Virus record (IMG/VR): IMGVR_UViG_3300046007_009749 | Coordinates: 1 to 34,260 of that record | DNA length: 34,260 nt | Reading direction: 5' to 3' (one strand) | DNA from: a virus | Shown here: positions 3,273-34,260 of the stretch, piece by piece | How positions within the stretch are numbered: the first letter of the stretch is position 1 | Layout: each line of letters starts with the position of its first letter | Translations under genes and position numbers: made by a program | Notes under the pieces: generated by a model | Told to the model about the DNA's origin: nothing | Databases searched by the model: none | The model's input: only the letters and a program-made list of their open reading frames with translations

Positions 3273-3760
3273 TGGCAACATACACATTCGCGCAAGATTT
3301 CACATATAACGACTCTACCAAGGTTTTGTCTGTAGACTCTATTGACGGAGTCATGAAGCGTTTATCTAGTACAACGGTGAACCTACAGACTTTGACAGGG
3401 CAGACGCTCTACACTGTTCCATCTGCAAAAATTGCTATTATTACAGGGATTGTTTGTCGCGGGTTTACGGCAAACTTGGATAAAGATTTTACTATTGGAT
3501 TTAATTCCCCTACGTTTAACGATGTTCTTGGGGCTCCTATTTATGATGCAGATGTTTTGCCATCAACAATTGGGAGCTGTCTTATCCTATCACTTTCTTC
3601 ATTTATTTCTGGGAGCCTATTTGACTCAACAGTTGCACTTAGAGTTCAAAACCACAAAGAAGGAACCGCTGGGGATGTCTTAAAGCTTTTGATGGCAAGC
3701 GCAAACACCGCCCCAGGAACCATGGTTGTTGATGTTTTTGGATACCTGGTTTCTGCGTAA
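3272..3760 (+). CDS. Hypothetical beta-rich structural protein
   Basis: Encodes 162 aa with 1-nt overlaps at both ends, locked into the operon. The sequence is Thr/Ser/Leu-rich and alternates polar and hydrophobic residues (LQTLTGQTLYTVPSAKIAII), typical of a beta-sandwich on a virion. It has no signal peptide or cysteine cluster. It lies directly before the tail terminator, so decoration or head-fiber functions are possible. Assignment is by context only. Confidence 0.7.
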   Translation: MATYTFAQDFTYNDSTKVLSVDSIDGVMKRLSSTTVNLQTLTGQTLYTVPSAKIAIITGIVCRGFTANLDKDFTIGFNSPTFNDVLGAPIYDADVLPSTIGSCLILSLSSFISGSLFDSTVALRVQNHKEGTAGDVLKLLMASANTAPGTMVVDVFGYLVSA

Positions 3761-5449: not shown

Positions 5450-6449
5450 GACAGGGATTGGGCAGGATGGATATTTTAGAGTACAAAAGGAAACGACATA
5501 TGGGACCGCGTTGACTAACGCGATGACTCTATGGCCTGTGAAGCCTGGGATTTCATTTAAGTCTATGCGCGAGGCAATAGAAAACGATAATATTATTTCT
5601 TCACGCTTAAAACAGATCCCAAACCTAGGCCGAGAGGTTTCCACTTTTGAAATCCCAATCGATGCACACCCAACTATTTTGGGCCAGATATTCCAATTTT
5701 TCCTTGGCGCGTCATCTAACGGAACCGTTACGGACAGCACATACACGCACACGTGGCTAATGCCAATAACCGGGTCAACTGCTGGTTATTCATTTACGGG
5801 GCAATTGGCGCTTGGCTCTGATCTTGCTGACACATATGCCGGCGCACAGATACATGAGCTAAAAATCGCCGGGGATAACCAGGGGAAAATAAATTTGACG
5901 CTGACCGGTACTTGCGAGGGCGTCGATGCACAGGGGGTCGCCCGGATATCCTCTTTCTCCTACCCATCCGCAATCCCGCTAAACTTTGCAATGGCCGCGA
6001 TTACGATTGACCCAGCGGACGCCGATTCATTTACACAGTTGGTCAACTCATTCGAGATAACTGTAAATCTAGGACTAGATGCAGATCGTTTTAAAATGGG
6101 ATCTGCTCAGCAATTGAGACCCCAGATCAATACTGTCCCGTCTGTAACATTTACTATGAATATTGATGCAGACAAACAATTTGTTAACGCTTCACGTGCA
6201 CACACAACGTATGACCTTCTTTTGACTGTAACTAGCACAGAGTATGCGGCTGGTACAACGCCATACCTGTTTGCAGTAGAGATCCCACGTGCGCTATTGA
6301 ACACAGACACATCTATTTCTGGCGATAATGACACGTTGAGTATGGATATAGAGTTTGATTGCAGCTACGGCGGGACAACCACCGGTAGCGGCTCTACTTT
6401 GGTCGCCGCTGAGTTTAGGGTTCGGGATGCCACGGCCGCTTACGCATAA
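5442..6449 (+). CDS. Major tail (tube) protein
   Basis: Encodes 335 aa. The N-terminus (GQDGYFRVQKETTYGTA) and the following KPGISFKSM...ISSR...GREVSTFEIPIDAHPTILGQIFQFFLG are typical of siphovirus tail-tube subunits, which stack as hexamers around the tape measure. GDNQGKINLTLTGTCEG matches the core beta-sandwich. The site AAAAAAGGAG precedes ATG 5442, fitting high expression. Order (then chaperones, then tape measure) supports the call. The length suggests an extra C-terminal surface domain of about 130 residues. Confidence 0.88.
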   Translation: MARTGIGQDGYFRVQKETTYGTALTNAMTLWPVKPGISFKSMREAIENDNIISSRLKQIPNLGREVSTFEIPIDAHPTILGQIFQFFLGASSNGTVTDSTYTHTWLMPITGSTAGYSFTGQLALGSDLADTYAGAQIHELKIAGDNQGKINLTLTGTCEGVDAQGVARISSFSYPSAIPLNFAMAAITIDPADADSFTQLVNSFEITVNLGLDADRFKMGSAQQLRPQINTVPSVTFTMNIDADKQFVNASRAHTTYDLLLTVTSTEYAAGTTPYLFAVEIPRALLNTDTSISGDNDTLSMDIEFDCSYGGTTTGSGSTLVAAEFRVRDATAAYA

Positions 6450-7193: not shown

Positions 7194-9495
7194 TATTGTC
7201 GACATTATTTATAGGCTAGTCGATAAAGTTACGCCAGAGGCCAAAAAAGTTTCTGGCTCGCTAAAAAACATTGAATCTAGCGCAGAATCCGCCGGTGACG
7301 GGGTAGACTCACTAGATAAAAAGCAAGGCAAGTTGTCGGCCAGTATGGCCGAGTTTGTCGGGATATCCGCCGGTATAGTTTACGGACTGCAAAAAATAGG
7401 CAAAAACCTAGTTGGTGCAGCTATAGATTATGAACAGCAGGAAATGGCTTTCACATCTATGCTTGGGAGTAGCCTCCGCGCACAGGAGCTTATAGCAGAT
7501 ATACAGAAAACAGCGGCGAGTACACCATTTGAGCAATCGGATCTAATAGATTACGCAAAGAAACTTATCGCAGTTGGTACAGCCTCTAGCGATGTTATCC
7601 CGGCGATGACGATGTTGGGGGATGTTGCCTCGGCGCTGGGTACTGAGAGACTGCCCCAAATCGTGCGCGGTTACTCAGACATACAAGCGGCAGGTCGTGC
7701 AATGGGAGGCGACCTAAAACAGCTCAGAGACGCGGCGGTCCCTATTGAGCAGTACCTAGCAAAAGTTCTTGGCGTTACAACGTCACAGGTTAGAAAATTA
7801 TCCGAAGAGTCTCAAATATCATCGGAAGATGTTAAAAAAGCTTTTCAGTTAATGACGTCAGAAGGCGAGCGCTTCCATGGAATGATGGCCGCACAGGCAA
7901 AAACGACTGGCGGGGCTATATCTAATCTTAGAGACCAAATCGGGGTAATGGCTATAGCGTTGGGAACGCCACTTTTGGGTCCTGTTAACTCGCTAGTTAA
8001 TGGGCTCAGATTTTTAATTGAACAGTTTAACAAGCTATCTCCAGGGGCAAAAACTTTTATTGCAATATCCGGCGCTGTGGCCACTGGCGTCATGGCAATG
8101 TCCACGGCATTTGGATTGCTGGCGCTTTCTCTCGGTGGGGCTAAAATAGCGCTGATGGCGCTTGCTGGCAGCACGGGGATAGGGCTAGTTGTTGGCGGGA
8201 TTGTCTTGCTAGGCACTGCTGTCTATAAAAATATGGACAGTGTAAAAATTGCAGTAAATGAAACCCGTTTAGTTTTTCAAAGATTCGCGCTTGGCGTTGT
8301 TGAGTCTGTAAATAAAATAATGGCGGCAATTGCGAAAATACCGGGCGGACAGAAAATAGTAAATTTAAGCGCCGGTGGATCGGTTGCCGACGATATAAAA
8401 AAAGAGATCGCGGCAACGGAAGCTACTATATCAGCTATAAAAGAGTCCCGTAAAAAAGCGGCCGACGATGAAGTGGCGGCAAAGAAACAGGCCATTGCAG
8501 AGGCGGCCGCGCTTGAAAAAAAGGAACTTGATGAAAAGGCGGCGAGGTTGAAGCAGGAAAATGATGCAAAGATCGCCGCCCAAAATGAATCCGCCGAAGC
8601 CGCCGCAAAAAAAGCGCAAGAAAAAGCCGATAAAGAAAAGGAAATACTTTTAAAGGAAAAAGATGAAGAGCTTGAAATAAGAAGAAAAGCTATCGCGGCG
8701 GAGCTTCTTATGACGTCAAAGACTGGTGAACAGGATGCTGCGTTTGCTCAGTCTCAGGCGGACAAATATAGAGATATAAACTCACGGCTAATTGAAGACA
8801 CACGCGCAGCGGCAGAGGAAGACTTCTTGAGAGAGCAAGAGCTTGCAAATCTTTCTCTTGAACAAAAAATATTACGTGTAGAGCAAGAGCTTGCAATCGA
8901 TGAGATGTCAGCAGAAAGAAGAAACGCTCTTTCTCAAAAACTTTACGACTTAGAGATACAGAGAATGGCGGCCCTTGACGCGAAGAAAAAACAGCAGCAA
9001 GCAATGTTTTTAGACGCGTTTGCAAAAATGGGTGATGGGCAACTTTCGCTACAAGAAGCGGTTTCACAGGGAATGCTAGAGTTTTATAAACGGGAGGCCT
9101 ACGCCGCCGTAGATATTGAGGCCGGGAAAATGTTTCAAACAGGTATGGCCCGCTTGATTGCTTCATTGTTTACGGACCCGATTGGATATGCTCACCTGGC
9201 GGGATCGGCGGCGCTTGTAGCTGGATCTAGGGCCGCTATAGGATCGATAAAGCTAGCTGAGGGGGGGGTCGTTATGCCACAGCCTGGGGGCGTCCGCGCA
9301 ACCGTTGCAGAGGCAGGCAAGCCGGAAATAGTTATGCCACTAGATGACCCGCGGGCGGCTAGTATGATGGGTGGCGCTGGCGGTCGTGAGGTGATAATAT
9401 TGAGCTCAGACGGGCAAACGATGCTTGCCAAAGGTATATATGCTGAGCAGCAAGAATTATTACGAACAGGGCAAATAGGCAGGTCTAGAATATAA
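7183..9495 (+). CDS. Tail tape measure protein
   Basis: Encodes 770 aa from ATG 7183; the in-frame TTG at 7168 lacks support. It is the longest gene. Residues about 70-260 hold the phage tape-measure domain (ELIADIQKTAASTPFEQSDL, QLRDAAVPIEQYLAKVLGVT). Residues about 290-350 form hydrophobic segments that may insert into the host membrane. Residues about 405-600 are Lys/Glu/Ala coiled coil. The C-terminus carries EGGVVMPQPGGVRATVAEAG then PEIVMPLDD, a common tape-measure ending. It sets tail length; at about 1.5 angstrom per residue the tail would be roughly 115 nm. Confidence 0.93.
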   Translation: MANSIVDIIYRLVDKVTPEAKKVSGSLKNIESSAESAGDGVDSLDKKQGKLSASMAEFVGISAGIVYGLQKIGKNLVGAAIDYEQQEMAFTSMLGSSLRAQELIADIQKTAASTPFEQSDLIDYAKKLIAVGTASSDVIPAMTMLGDVASALGTERLPQIVRGYSDIQAAGRAMGGDLKQLRDAAVPIEQYLAKVLGVTTSQVRKLSEESQISSEDVKKAFQLMTSEGERFHGMMAAQAKTTGGAISNLRDQIGVMAIALGTPLLGPVNSLVNGLRFLIEQFNKLSPGAKTFIAISGAVATGVMAMSTAFGLLALSLGGAKIALMALAGSTGIGLVVGGIVLLGTAVYKNMDSVKIAVNETRLVFQRFALGVVESVNKIMAAIAKIPGGQKIVNLSAGGSVADDIKKEIAATEATISAIKESRKKAADDEVAAKKQAIAEAAALEKKELDEKAARLKQENDAKIAAQNESAEAAAKKAQEKADKEKEILLKEKDEELEIRRKAIAAELLMTSKTGEQDAAFAQSQADKYRDINSRLIEDTRAAAEEDFLREQELANLSLEQKILRVEQELAIDEMSAERRNALSQKLYDLEIQRMAALDAKKKQQQAMFLDAFAKMGDGQLSLQEAVSQGMLEFYKREAYAAVDIEAGKMFQTGMARLIASLFTDPIGYAHLAGSAALVAGSRAAIGSIKLAEGGVVMPQPGGVRATVAEAGKPEIVMPLDDPRAASMMGGAGGREVIILSSDGQTMLAKGIYAEQQELLRTGQIGRSRI

Positions 9496-16414: not shown

Positions 16415-16466
16415 ATATAAAGTAACATAATTAATGTTACTCGATTAACTTTAAATATAAAATAAC
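16411..16466. repeat. 16-bp direct repeats flanking a palindrome
   Basis: TTAAATATAAAGTAAC (16411-16426) and TTAAATATAAAATAAC (16451-16466) differ at one base. Between and overlapping lies AGTAACAT-AATTA-ATGTTACT (16421-16441), an 8-bp inverted repeat. It is in the convergent gap between the primase and dUTPase genes. Purpose unknown; binding site or remnant of recombination are options. Confidence 0.6.
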
Positions 16467-16513
16467 CCCGCCAAGGTTGCGCATTGTAAAAAGGCGTGGC
16501 GGGTATGTTTTTT
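16467..16513. terminator. Bidirectional terminator between primase and dUTPase
   Basis: CCCGCCA (16467-16473) pairs with TGGCGGG (16497-16503) around a 23-nt loop. On the plus strand six Ts follow at 16508-16513; on the minus strand a T-rich tail follows. The long loop lowers certainty. It separates convergent units. Confidence 0.5.
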
Positions 16514-22241: not shown

Positions 22242-22272
22242 TTTAATTTCCTCCTAAAATATTGTGTTTATA

Positions 22273-23368: not shown

Positions 23369-23386
23369 TTATACCTCCTAAGTTTT
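23369..23386 (-). promoter_or_regulatory. Extended Shine-Dalgarno leader, early unit 23.4 kb
   Basis: Minus-strand AAACTTAGGAGGTA before ATG 23366. The same leader, shortened stepwise, precedes ATG 24620 (12 nt shared), 25213 (10 nt) and 22241 (8 nt). All four are first genes of promoter-bearing early units. Its complement forms the loop of the hairpin at 26987-27026. Confidence 0.7.
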
Positions 23387-24620: not shown

Positions 24621-24658
24621 CTTAATTCCTCCTAAGTTTTGACTAACTCGACACATCT

Positions 24659-25213: not shown

Positions 25214-25245
25214 TTTATTTCCTCCTAAGTAAATTTGATGCCGTT

Positions 25246-25274
25246 ATTTTAACGAATAAATATTTAATCGTCAA
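25246..25274 (-). promoter_or_regulatory. Leftward early promoter P25.3
   Basis: Minus strand: TTGACG (25274-25269), 17 nt, TAAAAT (25251-25246). The sequence around its -35 (ATTGAC-GAT-TAAATA) is a weak relative of the operator. Confidence 0.6.
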
Positions 25275-25331
25275 TACTCATTTTTGCTATTGTCAAAAAA
25301 TGGCACAAAAAACGCGTTTGAGGCTAAAAGT

Positions 25332-25392
25332 TATTGACCCGTGCGTACCCTAGGGTTACCCTGGACACGTCTAGGGTACACACGCGTCAATA
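25332..25392. repeat. Long imperfect palindrome in origin region
   Basis: Arms 25332-25353 and 25371-25392 match at 20 of 22 positions around a 17-nt centre that itself contains AGGGTTACCCT. Both arms begin or end at TATTGAC. It may be a cruciform, an initiator-protein site or a packaging signal. Confidence 0.8.
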
Positions 25393-25495
25393 GGTTTTAA
25401 AGTGCGCGTTTTAATACATATATAATATATTGAATAGTTAATAGGCTTAACCTCAAAATAGATAGTTATCCACAGGTTATCAATAGGCTTTACCC
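25389..25495 (+). repeat. Three iteron-like repeats
   Basis: AATAGGTTTTAA (25389), AATAGGCTTAACC (25440) and AATAGGCTTTACCC (25482), same orientation, spaced about 51 and 42 bp. They flank the AT-rich tract and DnaA box, as expected for binding sites of a replication initiator. Confidence 0.55.
25466..25474 (+). promoter_or_regulatory. Perfect DnaA box TTATCCACA
   Basis: Exact match to the consensus DnaA site, 26 bp right of the AT-rich tract. Suggests host DnaA helps to open the origin. Confidence 0.65.
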
Positions 25496-25559
25496 TAACA
25501 AAAAATCGGGTCTTTTCTTGGGGTTTTTATACCTGCCCACTAGGGGGTTGGAGTTATAC

Positions 25560-25595
25560 ACACCACACCCCCCCCTAAAGGGGGGTGTGGGGTGT
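25560..25595. repeat. GC-rich hairpin in origin region
   Basis: CCACACCCCCC (25563-25573) pairs with GGGGGGTGTGG (25580-25590); three more pairs form past a 2-nt bulge. No T-run follows, so it is not a simple terminator. Confidence 0.7.
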
Positions 25596-25668
25596 ACCCC
25601 CGTTTGGGAGGGTTAAAATACCCCCAAGACCTGGGCCGCCGGTGCCAGGGTACAGAAAAAACAAATCG

Positions 25669-26557: not shown

Positions 26558-26718
26558 AAATAGTCGGGGCATGTCTAATTGGTGTTGGTGGGTTTATGAT
26601 TTTTAGCTTGTCGTACACATACGCAGATGGTGATGTTGTAGGTGCATTTATTATATCTATGTGTGTTTCAATTATTGCCGGATCGGGTGTGTTTTGTTGT
26701 GTGGCAGAGGATTTTTAA
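26551..26718 (+). CDS. 55-aa two-pass membrane protein
   Basis: MLKIVGACLIGVGGFMIFSL and FIISMCVSIIAGSGVFCCVA form two membrane helices around a short polar loop. It overlaps neighbours by 7 and 1 nt, so it is translationally locked into the cluster. Third of the cluster's membrane proteins. Confidence 0.6.
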   Translation: MLKIVGACLIGVGGFMIFSLSYTYADGDVVGAFIISMCVSIIAGSGVFCCVAEDF

Positions 26719-26972
26719 TGGGACGGCGATATGGGCACATGTCAAAGATTTTTTTCAACGGCGAAAAATACGCGCACGTCAAAGTCGGAAAATCAAATGG
26801 CGTTACAAAGGTGTTTGTGGTGGCCGGGACATCTGACCGCGGCGATAAAAACAATCATTTGCTATTTGCAAAATCCGGGAAAAACATATCTGTACCGCTC
26901 AATGTAAATAAAGTTATTGGCCGACTTCTTCTTTTCGGTTACAAACAAGTTGAAATAAAAAATTTTACGTGA
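26718..26972 (+). CDS. Basic 84-aa protein before the late promoter
   Basis: ATG 26718 overlaps the previous stop. The protein is strongly basic: GRRYGHMSKIFFNGEKYAHV, then VNKVIGRLLLFGYKQVEIKN. A nucleic-acid-binding role is plausible from charge. The late-type promoter starts within its last codons. As last gene before the terminator it is a candidate, but only by position, for an antiterminator. Confidence 0.6.
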   Translation: MGRRYGHMSKIFFNGEKYAHVKVGKSNGVTKVFVVAGTSDRGDKNNHLLFAKSGKNISVPLNVNKVIGRLLLFGYKQVEIKNFT

Positions 26973-26978
26973 TAAAAT
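26950..26978 (+). promoter_or_regulatory. Late-type promoter abutting a terminator
   Basis: TTGAAA (26950-26955), 17 nt, TAAAAT (26973-26978). Transcription would start about 26985, at the foot of the hairpin. Late genes need either this promoter plus read-through or another start. Confidence 0.6.
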
Positions 26979-26984
26979 TTAGCC

Positions 26985-27032
26985 GCAGCGCCGCCGTTTT
27001 TACCTCCTAAGTTTGCCGGCGGCGCTTTTTAT
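26985..27032 (+). ncRNA. Predicted ~45-nt hairpin RNA with anti-Shine-Dalgarno loop
   Basis: The promoter at 26950 and terminator at 26987 together predict a free short RNA. Its 20-nt loop is TTTTTACCTCCTAAGTTTGC on a 10-bp GC stem. ACCTCCT equals the 16S rRNA 3' end region, and the loop is complementary over 14 nt to the leader of the Sak4-like gene, 12 nt to that of the 24620 gene and 10 nt to that of the 25213 gene. Could repress early translation when late transcription begins. Unproven. Confidence 0.5.
26987..27030 (+). terminator. Strong intrinsic terminator
   Basis: AGCGCCGCCG (26987-26996) pairs perfectly with CGGCGGCGCT (27017-27026), followed by T-run to 27030. It ends the small-gene cluster transcript and stands before the terminase genes. 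Confidence 0.85.
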
Positions 27033-27067: not shown

Positions 27068-27475
27068 TTGCCGTTCAATGAAAAAAGCCTAAAAAATTTA
27101 ATACCAATGAAACCTGGGCAAAGCAGCAACCCCGCCGGGAAACCAAAGGGCGCAAAAAGCATTACTAGTCATTTGCGTGATCTTTTAGAGCGTCAAATAC
27201 AAATGGGGGCTAGCAAAATATTGCCTGGCGGTGGCCAGATAACAGCGGGGCAGGCTGTGGCCGTTGCATTGATTGCCGGGGCTATCGAAGGGGACACGGC
27301 GAAAATCCGCGAATTATTGGACCGTATGGACGGAACATCAAAGCAGGTTTTGGAAATTGAGAATAACGAAAAACCAGACGCAGACAAAATATATTCTGAT
27401 ATAAGATCACGGCTTTCGCAGGCGAGAAAAAATGCTATCAAGCCAAAAAAAAGCAATTCTAAAAAGAATAAATGA
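27068..27475 (+). CDS. Terminase small subunit-like protein (DUF5681 pattern)
   Basis: Encodes 135 aa from TTG 27068, 7 nt after ATGGAG. MKPGQSSNPAGKPKGAKSIT (about 14-33) is the DUF5681 signature usual in phage small terminases, with HTH-like DNA-binding and Lys-rich end. It overlaps the large terminase gene by 44 nt. Would recognise the packaging start. No pac or cos site identified. Confidence 0.75.
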   Translation: MPFNEKSLKNLIPMKPGQSSNPAGKPKGAKSITSHLRDLLERQIQMGASKILPGGGQITAGQAVAVALIAGAIEGDTAKIRELLDRMDGTSKQVLEIENNEKPDADKIYSDIRSRLSQARKNAIKPKKSNSKKNK

Positions 27476-28892
27476 AGCTAAAGAAGCGCTTGATCTGGGG
27501 GTTGTTGATTATAACGACTTTTGCCTTGTTATCAAAGACGCTGAAAAAAAACTTGACGCGATAGAGTTTGAGGAACGCAAAAGCGATATCCTCGCTTGGG
27601 GGCGTTATTATTTCCCGGACAAGTTCAATTTGCCGTTTTGCGAGGAATTGCATAGGTACCTAATATCTATAGCCGATGACCCATTTACGGACACTCTGGC
27701 GCCACGTGGGCACGCAAAGACAACAATAAAATGCTTTTTAATCCCAATATATTACGCGCTTAATTACCCGAAAAAGTTTAGGCACTACGTCAATATCCAA
27801 TCTACGGCAACAAAGGCAGTTAGCGTCAATCTTTCAATACGTCAAGAACTGGAAGAGAACGAACTTATATTGCGTGACTATGGAAAGCTTGATAGCAAAG
27901 ACAAATGGACAGAAAAGCAATTTGCTTTAACTAATGGCGTTGTGTTTACCGCTGTAGGTGCTGGAGAGTCATTTAGGGGAAAGAATTACCGCAACATTCG
28001 TCCAGATTACATCATAATGGATGACCTCTATGACGAGGACGATATGGAGAACCCAGAACGTGTTTTAAAAAAAAATAGATGGTTCTGGGGAACGGTATAT
28101 AAATCGACGGCTGTGGGTCGTGCAACGTGTATACATATCCAGGGGACGGCGATACATAGCTCCGACCTAATGCACCAGCTTAAAAAAAGCTCACGTTGGA
28201 AGTTTCGGAAATTTACCGCTTGCGATTTTGATACCGGATATGTTTTGTGGCCAGAGAATAACACGCTCGATAAACTAATGGCGGACCGGTCCGATATGGG
28301 CAGCATTATTTTTAACCGTGAGATGCTAAACGAGCTCAGAGATGATCACGCGTCAATAATCAAGAGCCATTACATTCGCACTGTTGATTTTATGCCTGAC
28401 GTAAAGATTCAATACAGAATAGGTGCTATTGACCCAGCAGAAAAAACAAGCGAGCTTAACGACTACACGGCAAAAGTTGTTATGTACGTAACAGAAGAAA
28501 AAGACATCTACATAGTTGACATAAGAAACGACAAGCTATCGTTTAACGAAAACAAAAACGACACTATACAGATGCATAACAAGCACAAGCTGGCAATCGT
28601 TCCATTTGAGACAAACAAGGCGTTTGGCTTGTATGAGGAGCTAAAGCGGACAACTGGTGTCCCTGTACGTGAAAGAATTACAACAAAAGACAAAATTACT
28701 CGGCTAATAGCGGTTTCAGCTTTTTTTGAAAACGGGAAAGTTTTTTTCGTCAAAAAAGATATTAGCGAAAAGATTTTGACAGAAGCCATAGACCAGTGTA
28801 TCTATAACACCCCTACACACGACGACATAAGGGATGCTATTGTTTTGGGTATTGAAGAAGTTTCAAAGTTACGTCAAGCATTTGTCGGATAG
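27432..28892 (+). CDS. Terminase large subunit
   Basis: Encodes 486 aa. ATPase: Walker A-like PRGHAKTT (about 91-98), Walker B YIIMDD (193-198) with acidic run. Nuclease: IGAIDPAEK (Asp334) and HDDIRDA (about 463-469), forming the RNase H-type site that cuts concatemers. WTEKQFALTNGVVF and FRGKNYRNIRPDY are also usual. Full length for the family. Packs DNA into the prohead with the portal encoded next. Confidence 0.93.
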   Translation: MLSSQKKAILKRINEAKEALDLGVVDYNDFCLVIKDAEKKLDAIEFEERKSDILAWGRYYFPDKFNLPFCEELHRYLISIADDPFTDTLAPRGHAKTTIKCFLIPIYYALNYPKKFRHYVNIQSTATKAVSVNLSIRQELEENELILRDYGKLDSKDKWTEKQFALTNGVVFTAVGAGESFRGKNYRNIRPDYIIMDDLYDEDDMENPERVLKKNRWFWGTVYKSTAVGRATCIHIQGTAIHSSDLMHQLKKSSRWKFRKFTACDFDTGYVLWPENNTLDKLMADRSDMGSIIFNREMLNELRDDHASIIKSHYIRTVDFMPDVKIQYRIGAIDPAEKTSELNDYTAKVVMYVTEEKDIYIVDIRNDKLSFNENKNDTIQMHNKHKLAIVPFETNKAFGLYEELKRTTGVPVRERITTKDKITRLIAVSAFFENGKVFFVKKDISEKILTEAIDQCIYNTPTHDDIRDAIVLGIEEVSKLRQAFVG

Positions 28893-33603: not shown

Positions 33604-34181
33604 TGGCCATTTGCACGTCCGCAGATGTATTTGCGTTCGCTGGGTCGCCGGCGGACGTGCAAACCACGCAAGCAAGCGCGGTTACGTCACTTATTGCAAA
33701 CGTTTCAAGTTATGTAGAAGCTTGCATTGGTAGAAAGATAGAGACATTTGCAATAAGTAACGTAATTTTTCAGGATGGGTTGAATTGCGACATTGTTGGT
33801 CAAAAAATTTACCTTAAGGGTATATATAGGGACCTGTATTCAATCAGCCTTTTAAAGGAGGCTGGCGGCACACTAACGGCCGTTGCCGCGTATGATGACG
33901 GAGGCGATTATTATCTGGACCCACGAATAGGCGCGATTATTAGGAGCGGACAGGATTGGAGCCTAGAGCCGTTTGCCATATTGATATCTGGAAACGTTTG
34001 TGCTGGCGGGGCATCTGGTTCCTTGGGGATAAAGCAGGCCGTTATAGAAATAGTGGCGTCTAAAGCTGGGCTTTTGAAAACTGAAATCTTGACGGACTCG
34101 GGTAGCATTGATACAGTCAGAACATTGAGTGAGAACCAAATTAAAAATATGTTAAAAACTTACGTAACGAGGGATATATAA
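33603..34181 (+). CDS. Head-tail connector / adaptor protein
   Basis: Encodes 192 aa. Pattern VFAFAGSPADVQTTQASAVT...VSSYVEACIGR (1-45) and IKQAVIEIVASKAGLL, with C-terminal LSENQIKNMLKTYVTRD, is like gp6/gp15-type adaptors that dock below the portal. Its end lies in the terminal repeat and is also present at 1-48. Adjacent to capsid genes as expected. Confidence 0.75.
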   Translation: MAICTSADVFAFAGSPADVQTTQASAVTSLIANVSSYVEACIGRKIETFAISNVIFQDGLNCDIVGQKIYLKGIYRDLYSISLLKEAGGTLTAVAAYDDGGDYYLDPRIGAIIRSGQDWSLEPFAILISGNVCAGGASGSLGIKQAVIEIVASKAGLLKTEILTDSGSIDTVRTLSENQIKNMLKTYVTRDI

Positions 34182-34260
34182 TGGCATTAGGAGACGGAAA
34201 AGGCAGGGCAGGGCTACAGTTTGCAACGCCATCTAGTGTGACAGTTGGGGATACATCTAC
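34134..34260. repeat. Right copy of 127-bp terminal redundancy
   Basis: Identical to bases 1-127. Remove one copy to obtain the circular genome of about 34,133 bp. Confidence 0.97.
34181..34260 (+). CDS. Duplicate 5' end of the gene at 48-359 (partial)
   Basis: The last 80 bases repeat the start of the small virion-associated gene at 48. Partial only because the circle was linearised. Confidence 0.95.
   Translation, partial: MALGDGKGRAGLQFATPSSVTVGDTS

Follow-up and report, generated by a model that had tools for sequence, protein, structure and literature searches.

A conserved promoter-hairpin unit with an anti-Shine-Dalgarno loop ahead of phage terminase genes: a candidate RNA route from late transcription to early translation

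Introduction

Accounts of the switch from early to late gene expression in phages usually invoke polymerases, sigma factors, antiterminators, or repressor proteins. The locus described here raises the question of whether a hairpin at the start of a late transcript could contribute to such a switch by pairing with the phage's own early mRNAs. In IMG/VR record IMGVR_UViG_3300046007_009749, which was analyzed over its full 34,260 nucleotides (hereafter, the window), a promoter is closely followed by a stem-loop that displays ACCTCCT, the universal anti-Shine-Dalgarno core. Two points are at issue: whether this hairpin is a real RNA switch or a product of chance and, if it is real, which translation starts it would act on.

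Genome Organization and the Promoter-Hairpin Unit

The first and last 127 bases of the record (1–127 and 34134–34260) are identical; the window, though handled as linear, is thus very likely a single genome of 34,133 bp that is complete and maps circularly. Its leftward genes (Sak4-like, SSB-like, helicase, VRR nuclease, Lar, and dUTPase) are here called early and its rightward structural genes (terminase, portal, capsid, etc.) late, labels that are based on gene content and known here from the genes alone. The rightward series begins with a terminase small-subunit candidate, which has a weak match to phrog_26239 (function unknown) and is placed ahead of the large-subunit gene, TerL (Table 1). 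The helicase is 59–64% identical to helicases of Alteromonas phages, Idiomarinaceae phages, and one uncultured phage, and a search of GTDB genomes with TerL returned only three weak matches (25–34% identity).

The promoter-hairpin unit lies directly upstream of the terminase genes. A first-pass annotation of this DNA had described a sigma70-type promoter, TTGAAA-17-TAAAAT, then a perfect 10-bp stem and a T-run, and all of these are present in the window sequence. A bare match to the promoter consensus is not above chance (33 sites in the window vs. 29.7 ± 5.5 in shuffles); this one has a TG before its -10 element, and its core, ACGTGATAnAAT, is kept in five related contigs (L002 and L007–L010). 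The stem starts exactly 8 nt past the -10 element, with arms AGCGCCGCCG (26987–26996) and CGGCGGCGCT (27017–27026) enclosing the loop TTTTTACCTCCTAAGTTTGC (26997–27016). The predicted fold has an energy of -20.3 kcal/mol (z = -2.2) and leaves the loop essentially open. In 150 simulated genomes with the same dinucleotide make-up, no hairpin with at least 8 bp, at least 7 G-C, and CCTCCT in its loop was found, vs. one in the window. Rfam 15 covariance models gave no match at the hairpin site in the window, L008, or L010.

Table 1. Positions in the window of the promoter-hairpin unit, the first late genes, and the early leaders complementary to the loop
Feature	Position	Strand	Basis
Sigma70-type promoter TTGAAA-17-TAAAAT, extended -10 (TGATAAAAT), core ACGTGATAnAAT	26950–26978	+	Consensus scan; core conservation
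Stem-loop, perfect 10-bp stem, 20-nt loop	26987–27026	+	Sequence, fold, compensatory stem changes in relatives
Anti-Shine-Dalgarno loop segment ACCTCCTAAGTTT	27002–27014	+	12-nt core identical in L007–L010, one A shorter in L002
T-run, five T, terminator-like in window phage only	27026–27030	+	Sequence; absent in L002, displaced 4 nt in L007–L010
Terminase small-subunit candidate, first late gene	27068–27475	+	ORF, TTG start, weak GGAG Shine-Dalgarno
Terminase large subunit	27432–28892	+	phrog_38, E = 7e-67
Leader of Sak4-like gene (ATG 23366), AAACTTAGGAGGTA	23372–23385	-	14 nt complementary to loop; promoter 23420–23392; -23.2 kcal/mol, rank 1 of 60
Leader of ORF 24620, AAACTTAGGAGG	24628–24639	-	12 nt complementary; promoter 24687–24659; -19.1 kcal/mol, rank 2
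Leader of ORF 25213, ACTTAGGAGG	25221–25230	-	10 nt complementary; promoter 25274–25246; -16.7 kcal/mol, rank 3
Leader of SSB-like gene (ATG 22241), TTAGGAGG	22250–22257	-	8 nt complementary; promoter 22301–22273; -13.4 kcal/mol, rank 6

A second structured RNA was found elsewhere in the genome. On the minus strand, positions 16466–16503 match the full-length abiF RNA (Rfam RF03085; 38.5 bits, cut-off 37), as do positions 8942–8979 (minus strand, 41.6 bits) of a related phage contig, L099; the Abi_2 (AbiF) protein is absent from both records. Since abiF RNA motifs neutralize the AbiF toxin in trans (PMC12373285), the lone abiF RNA could be a counter-defense antitoxin mimic of the phage.

Conservation of the Loop and Rewriting of the Stem

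The terminase large subunit served as the query for relatives, which were found at protein identities of 98% (L002), 80% (L003–L005), and 77% (L006–L010). The promoter core and a hairpin in the same place precede the terminase genes of L002 and L007–L010; with the window, this makes six contigs in two clades (window/L002 and L007–L010), the only independent clades known for the element, whose terminases share 77% protein and ~72% DNA identity. No such core and hairpin were found at the corresponding place in L003–L005, and L006 begins too late to tell. The element was likewise not found among more distant TerL relatives (L053–L091, mostly 34–55%), and searches of IMG/VR and GTDB genomes with loop-promoter DNA patterns recovered the promoter-hairpin-terminase layout only in the L002/L007–L010 group. 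The 35-kb L003, one of the relatives without the hairpin, carries a tRNA gene at 3698–3756 (plus strand, 45.6 bits).

The distance from promoter to loop in L007–L010 equals that of the window, with 24 nt from TGATAnAAT to CCTCCTAAGT. Four versions of the stem exist: AGCGCCGCCG in the window, TGCGTCGCCG in L002, GCCCGCGC in L007, L008, and L010, and GCCCGCGTT in L009. Counted outward from the loop, by script from a hand-set register and over only these four distinct sequences, eight pairs are shared by all versions. Each is a standard pair throughout, and half of them change on both sides yet stay paired (G-C/C-G/T-A, C-G/G-C, G-C/C-G, and C-G/G-C). The 12-nt loop core, CCTCCTAAGTTT, is identical in the window and L007–L010, and the loop of L002 (CCTCCTAGTTT) is one A shorter. 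Set against the divergence of the terminase DNA and against surrounding non-coding DNA that barely aligns between the clades, this identity indicates that no other part of the element is as constrained as the loop. The first-pass annotation would have been contradicted by relatives that kept the stem and lost the loop complementarity; the opposite is seen. Since related phages have retained the loop through changes in the stem, the anti-Shine-Dalgarno hairpin is probably a genuine RNA switch and not a chance structure, and the comparison supports selection on the promoter-hairpin unit with its loop.

The same pattern bears on the idea that the hairpin is a functionless relic, an early leader copied or captured in inverted orientation. 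The minus strand does read GGCAAACTTAGGAGGTAAAAACGG, and its resemblance to the Sak4-like leader spans ~24 nt with two single-base gaps. However, the 12 nt are unchanged in the second clade though both stem arms have been replaced there, and the minus strand of the window lacks a suitably spaced start codon, so that we consider such an origin very improbable.

Comparable hairpins were noted in other phages. In L041, an unrelated 93-kb phage contig, positions 2690–2810 hold a TTGACA-17-TACAAT promoter, an 8-bp stem with loop AACCTCCTAAGTGATGGG, and then a terminator-like repeat, possibly an independent anti-Shine-Dalgarno RNA. In L044 and L048 (~6010–6070 in the latter), a structural gene is followed by a small hairpin, ACACACCTCCTAAGTGTGT, with CCTCCTAA in its loop, and then by a long stem-loop; this too is possibly an independent case. 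Both finds come without supporting conservation. Among Alteromonas/Idiomarina phages with the early gene module in common, 1N2-2 and XX1924 have terminators with CCTCC loops; these were treated as chance because the equivalent loop of PB15 differs.

The Terminator Question

The T-run directly follows the stem in the window only: the corresponding sequence is AACAAAG in L002 and ACTATTTTTTT in L007–L010, where a T-run begins 4 nt past the stem. The stand-alone, terminated RNA of ~45 nt that the first-pass annotation proposed is therefore not a conserved property. What is conserved is a stem-loop close to the start of the predicted late transcript, and a free ~45-nt RNA may be made by the window phage only.

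The hairpin might still be an ordinary intrinsic terminator that ends rightward transcription from upstream or attenuates the late promoter, its loop sequence being incidental. Its GC-rich 10-bp stem with five T in the window would fit this function, as would its location immediately after a rightward ORF (26718–26972), the stop codon of which lies 14 nt before the stem. We nevertheless regard this explanation as improbable: besides the missing or displaced T-run of the relatives, at 20 nt the loop is longer than expected of a terminator, and it is the loop that is conserved here, not the stem, the opposite of the homologous XX1924 and PB15 terminators, whose loops differ.

The layout had also been likened to lambda pR′-tR′, in which a late promoter is closely followed by a hairpin. 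Here, however, the hairpin stands at about +1, not far downstream, and no Q-like antiterminator gene was recognized among the proteins searched (a subset of the genes). As judged from the T-run sequence, an intrinsic terminator separating the late promoter from the late genes is not a conserved feature, and because the T-run is absent in L002 and displaced in L007–L010, antitermination of the lambda type is not supported.

Complementarity to Early-Gene Leaders

The loop is exactly complementary to the leaders of the four early genes to which it had first been matched (Table 1). Ranked by simple duplex energy against the start regions of 60 window genes, these leaders take places 1, 2, 3, and 6, and the terminase leader is at background. 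The match extends beyond ACCTCCT. When this core was kept and the remaining loop letters were shuffled, only 0.16% of loops equaled the pairing with the four window leaders together, although the SSB-like leader was not significant on its own. In the second clade, where the early leaders are GAAAAACTTAGGAG, GAAAACATTAGGAGG, and GAAAAGCTTAGGAG, each behind its own promoter, flank-shuffled loops paired as well with these leaders in 0 of 4000 (L008), 0.18% (L010), and 0.08% (L007) of cases. All these shuffles preserve composition, but leaders from the same clade are interrelated. The original argument that a fit beyond the normal Shine-Dalgarno sequence speaks against chance thus holds in both clades, with 0–0.2% of flank-shuffled loops as good.

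These values also concern the suggestion that the loop is a general mimic of the 16S tail, a decoy for Shine-Dalgarno sequences at large, whether of phage or host. The loop does contain the universal core, and the early leaders, which are among the best targets in both clades, may simply be the strongest Shine-Dalgarno sites of the phage. Yet the flanking loop letters improve the fit to the early leaders beyond the core in both clades, and in the window the pairing with these leaders (-13 to -23 kcal/mol) is stronger than a generic 16S tail would achieve (about -10 to -12 kcal/mol). A general decoy seems to us quite unlikely.

How specific the fit is can be judged from exchanging loops between clades. 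The outcome was mixed: three of the window's four leaders pair at least as strongly with the L007-type loop as with their own. A leader-by-leader covariation was thus not evident, and a leader-specific co-evolution of loop and leaders is not claimed. Because of these mixed results, the loop is taken to fit a consensus shared by the leaders and not those of each clade in particular.

Other relatives can be placed beside this. In L003, a full 35-kb relative without the hairpin, neither strand holds CCTCCTAAGTTT at up to one mismatch, and the complementary leader motif is likewise missing. L098 carries a AAAACTTAGGAGG leader; no hairpin was found in its clade, though the contig does not show the late promoter. 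For L002, whose contig stops short of the early genes, action in trans predicts from the shortened loop that the leaders contain AAACTAGGAGG.

The early region has further features of its own. A palindrome like TTTACAATGTAAA, probably an operator for an early repressor, overlies the -35 element in early promoters of the window (23420 and 22301, minus strand) and of L007, L008, and L010. The AT-rich non-coding stretch at 25240–25660 contains, at 25325–25399, an inverted repeat (29 nt, 86%) around CTAGGGTACACACGCGTCAATA and is possibly a replication origin or a regulatory region.

Cis Control of the Terminase Gene

The main rival to action on early mRNAs is control in cis, in which the loop would pair with the Shine-Dalgarno sequence of the terminase small-subunit gene as a pseudoknot and restrain late translation, an effect that competition by early mRNAs, ribosomes, or a protein would end. 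In L007–L010, 8–9 nt of the terminase leader, TTTTTTTAGGAGGTAAAAAAATG, can pair with the loop, and an H-type pseudoknot could form; CCUCCUAA pairs there with UUAGGAGG of that leader at -12.7 kcal/mol, and only 2 of 1000 shuffles are as good. The other clade differs: the leader TATGGAGTAAA reaches only -7.8 kcal/mol in the window and -7.1 kcal/mol in L002, with 6 and 20% of shuffles as good. Complementarity to the downstream Shine-Dalgarno sequence is thus strong in L007–L010 and at background in the window and L002, and the loop core of the window has been kept despite its weak terminase Shine-Dalgarno sequence. Moreover, early leaders pair better in both clades. A cis role is possible in one clade, and would leave the retention of the loop core in the other unexplained; as an account of the element as a whole, we hold it to be unlikely.

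A Possible Trans Effect on Early Translation

The reading that we favor, at a little short of even confidence, is that the stem-loop at the 5′ end of the late transcript displays an anti-Shine-Dalgarno sequence and dampens the translation of early genes in trans. Transcription of the late operon would start from the conserved sigma70-type promoter, and the transcript would open, at about +1, with the stem-loop holding CCUCCUAAGUUU in its loop. This loop would pair with the Shine-Dalgarno regions of the early mRNAs (Sak4-like, 24620, 25213, and, weakly, SSB-like) and hinder ribosome loading on them during late transcription, which would help the early-to-late switch. In the window phage, the T-run may also release the hairpin as the ~45-nt RNA; in the relatives, the hairpin would more likely remain the 5′ end of the late mRNA.

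Direct observation covers the position of the unit, the conservation of promoter core and loop, the compensatory stem changes, and the strong, preferential complementarity to early leaders; from these we infer the late activity of the promoter, the pairing of the RNA in vivo, and the drop in translation. Sterically, a duplex of 12–13 bp within a closed 20-nt loop would be strained, which limits this reading. More tentatively still, the stem-loop of the late mRNA might use the leader motif common to the early genes, AAACTTAGGAGG, to lower their translation collectively, as an RNA-only switch that would require neither a dedicated regulator protein nor a separate sRNA gene. If true, late transcription would have an RNA route by which to lower early translation directly, and the combination of a promoter, a covarying stem, and a fixed anti-Shine-Dalgarno loop would offer a searchable signature for phages without a known late regulator.

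Comparison with Known Systems

In the open-licence literature, no paper was found on an anti-Shine-Dalgarno loop in a late leader acting against the phage's own early genes, and three systems come close in part. StxS of Stx phages is a 74-nt leader RNA from PR′-tR′, bound by Hfq and processed by RNase E, which targets the late gene stx1B and rpoS (PMC7873438). Like StxS, the RNA predicted here is short, comes from the start of a late transcript, and would bind ribosome-binding sites and block translation; its complementarity to such sites extends over 14, 12, 10, and 8 nt of the early leaders. Unlike StxS, it is predicted to target early genes of its own phage, with a hairpin loop as the pairing segment. 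The c4 antisense RNA of P1/P7, with complementary segments probably in loops, blocks a ribosome-binding site and acts on the ant mRNA in immunity (PMC12197685). It shares with our element its phage origin, the loop-borne complementarity, and the type of target, whereas here a leader motif common to several separate early genes would be the target, and the RNA is a late leader. Finally, the C-rich-loop sRNAs sX13 of Xanthomonas and RNAIII of Staphylococcus use structured apical C-rich loops to pair with G-rich motifs near translation starts (PMC3771888); these are host-encoded and multi-hairpin, and the segment borne by the loop described here, CCTCCTAAGTTT, is longer and specific. In its predicted action, the element resembles StxS, c4, and the C-rich-loop sRNAs, with membership established in none of them.
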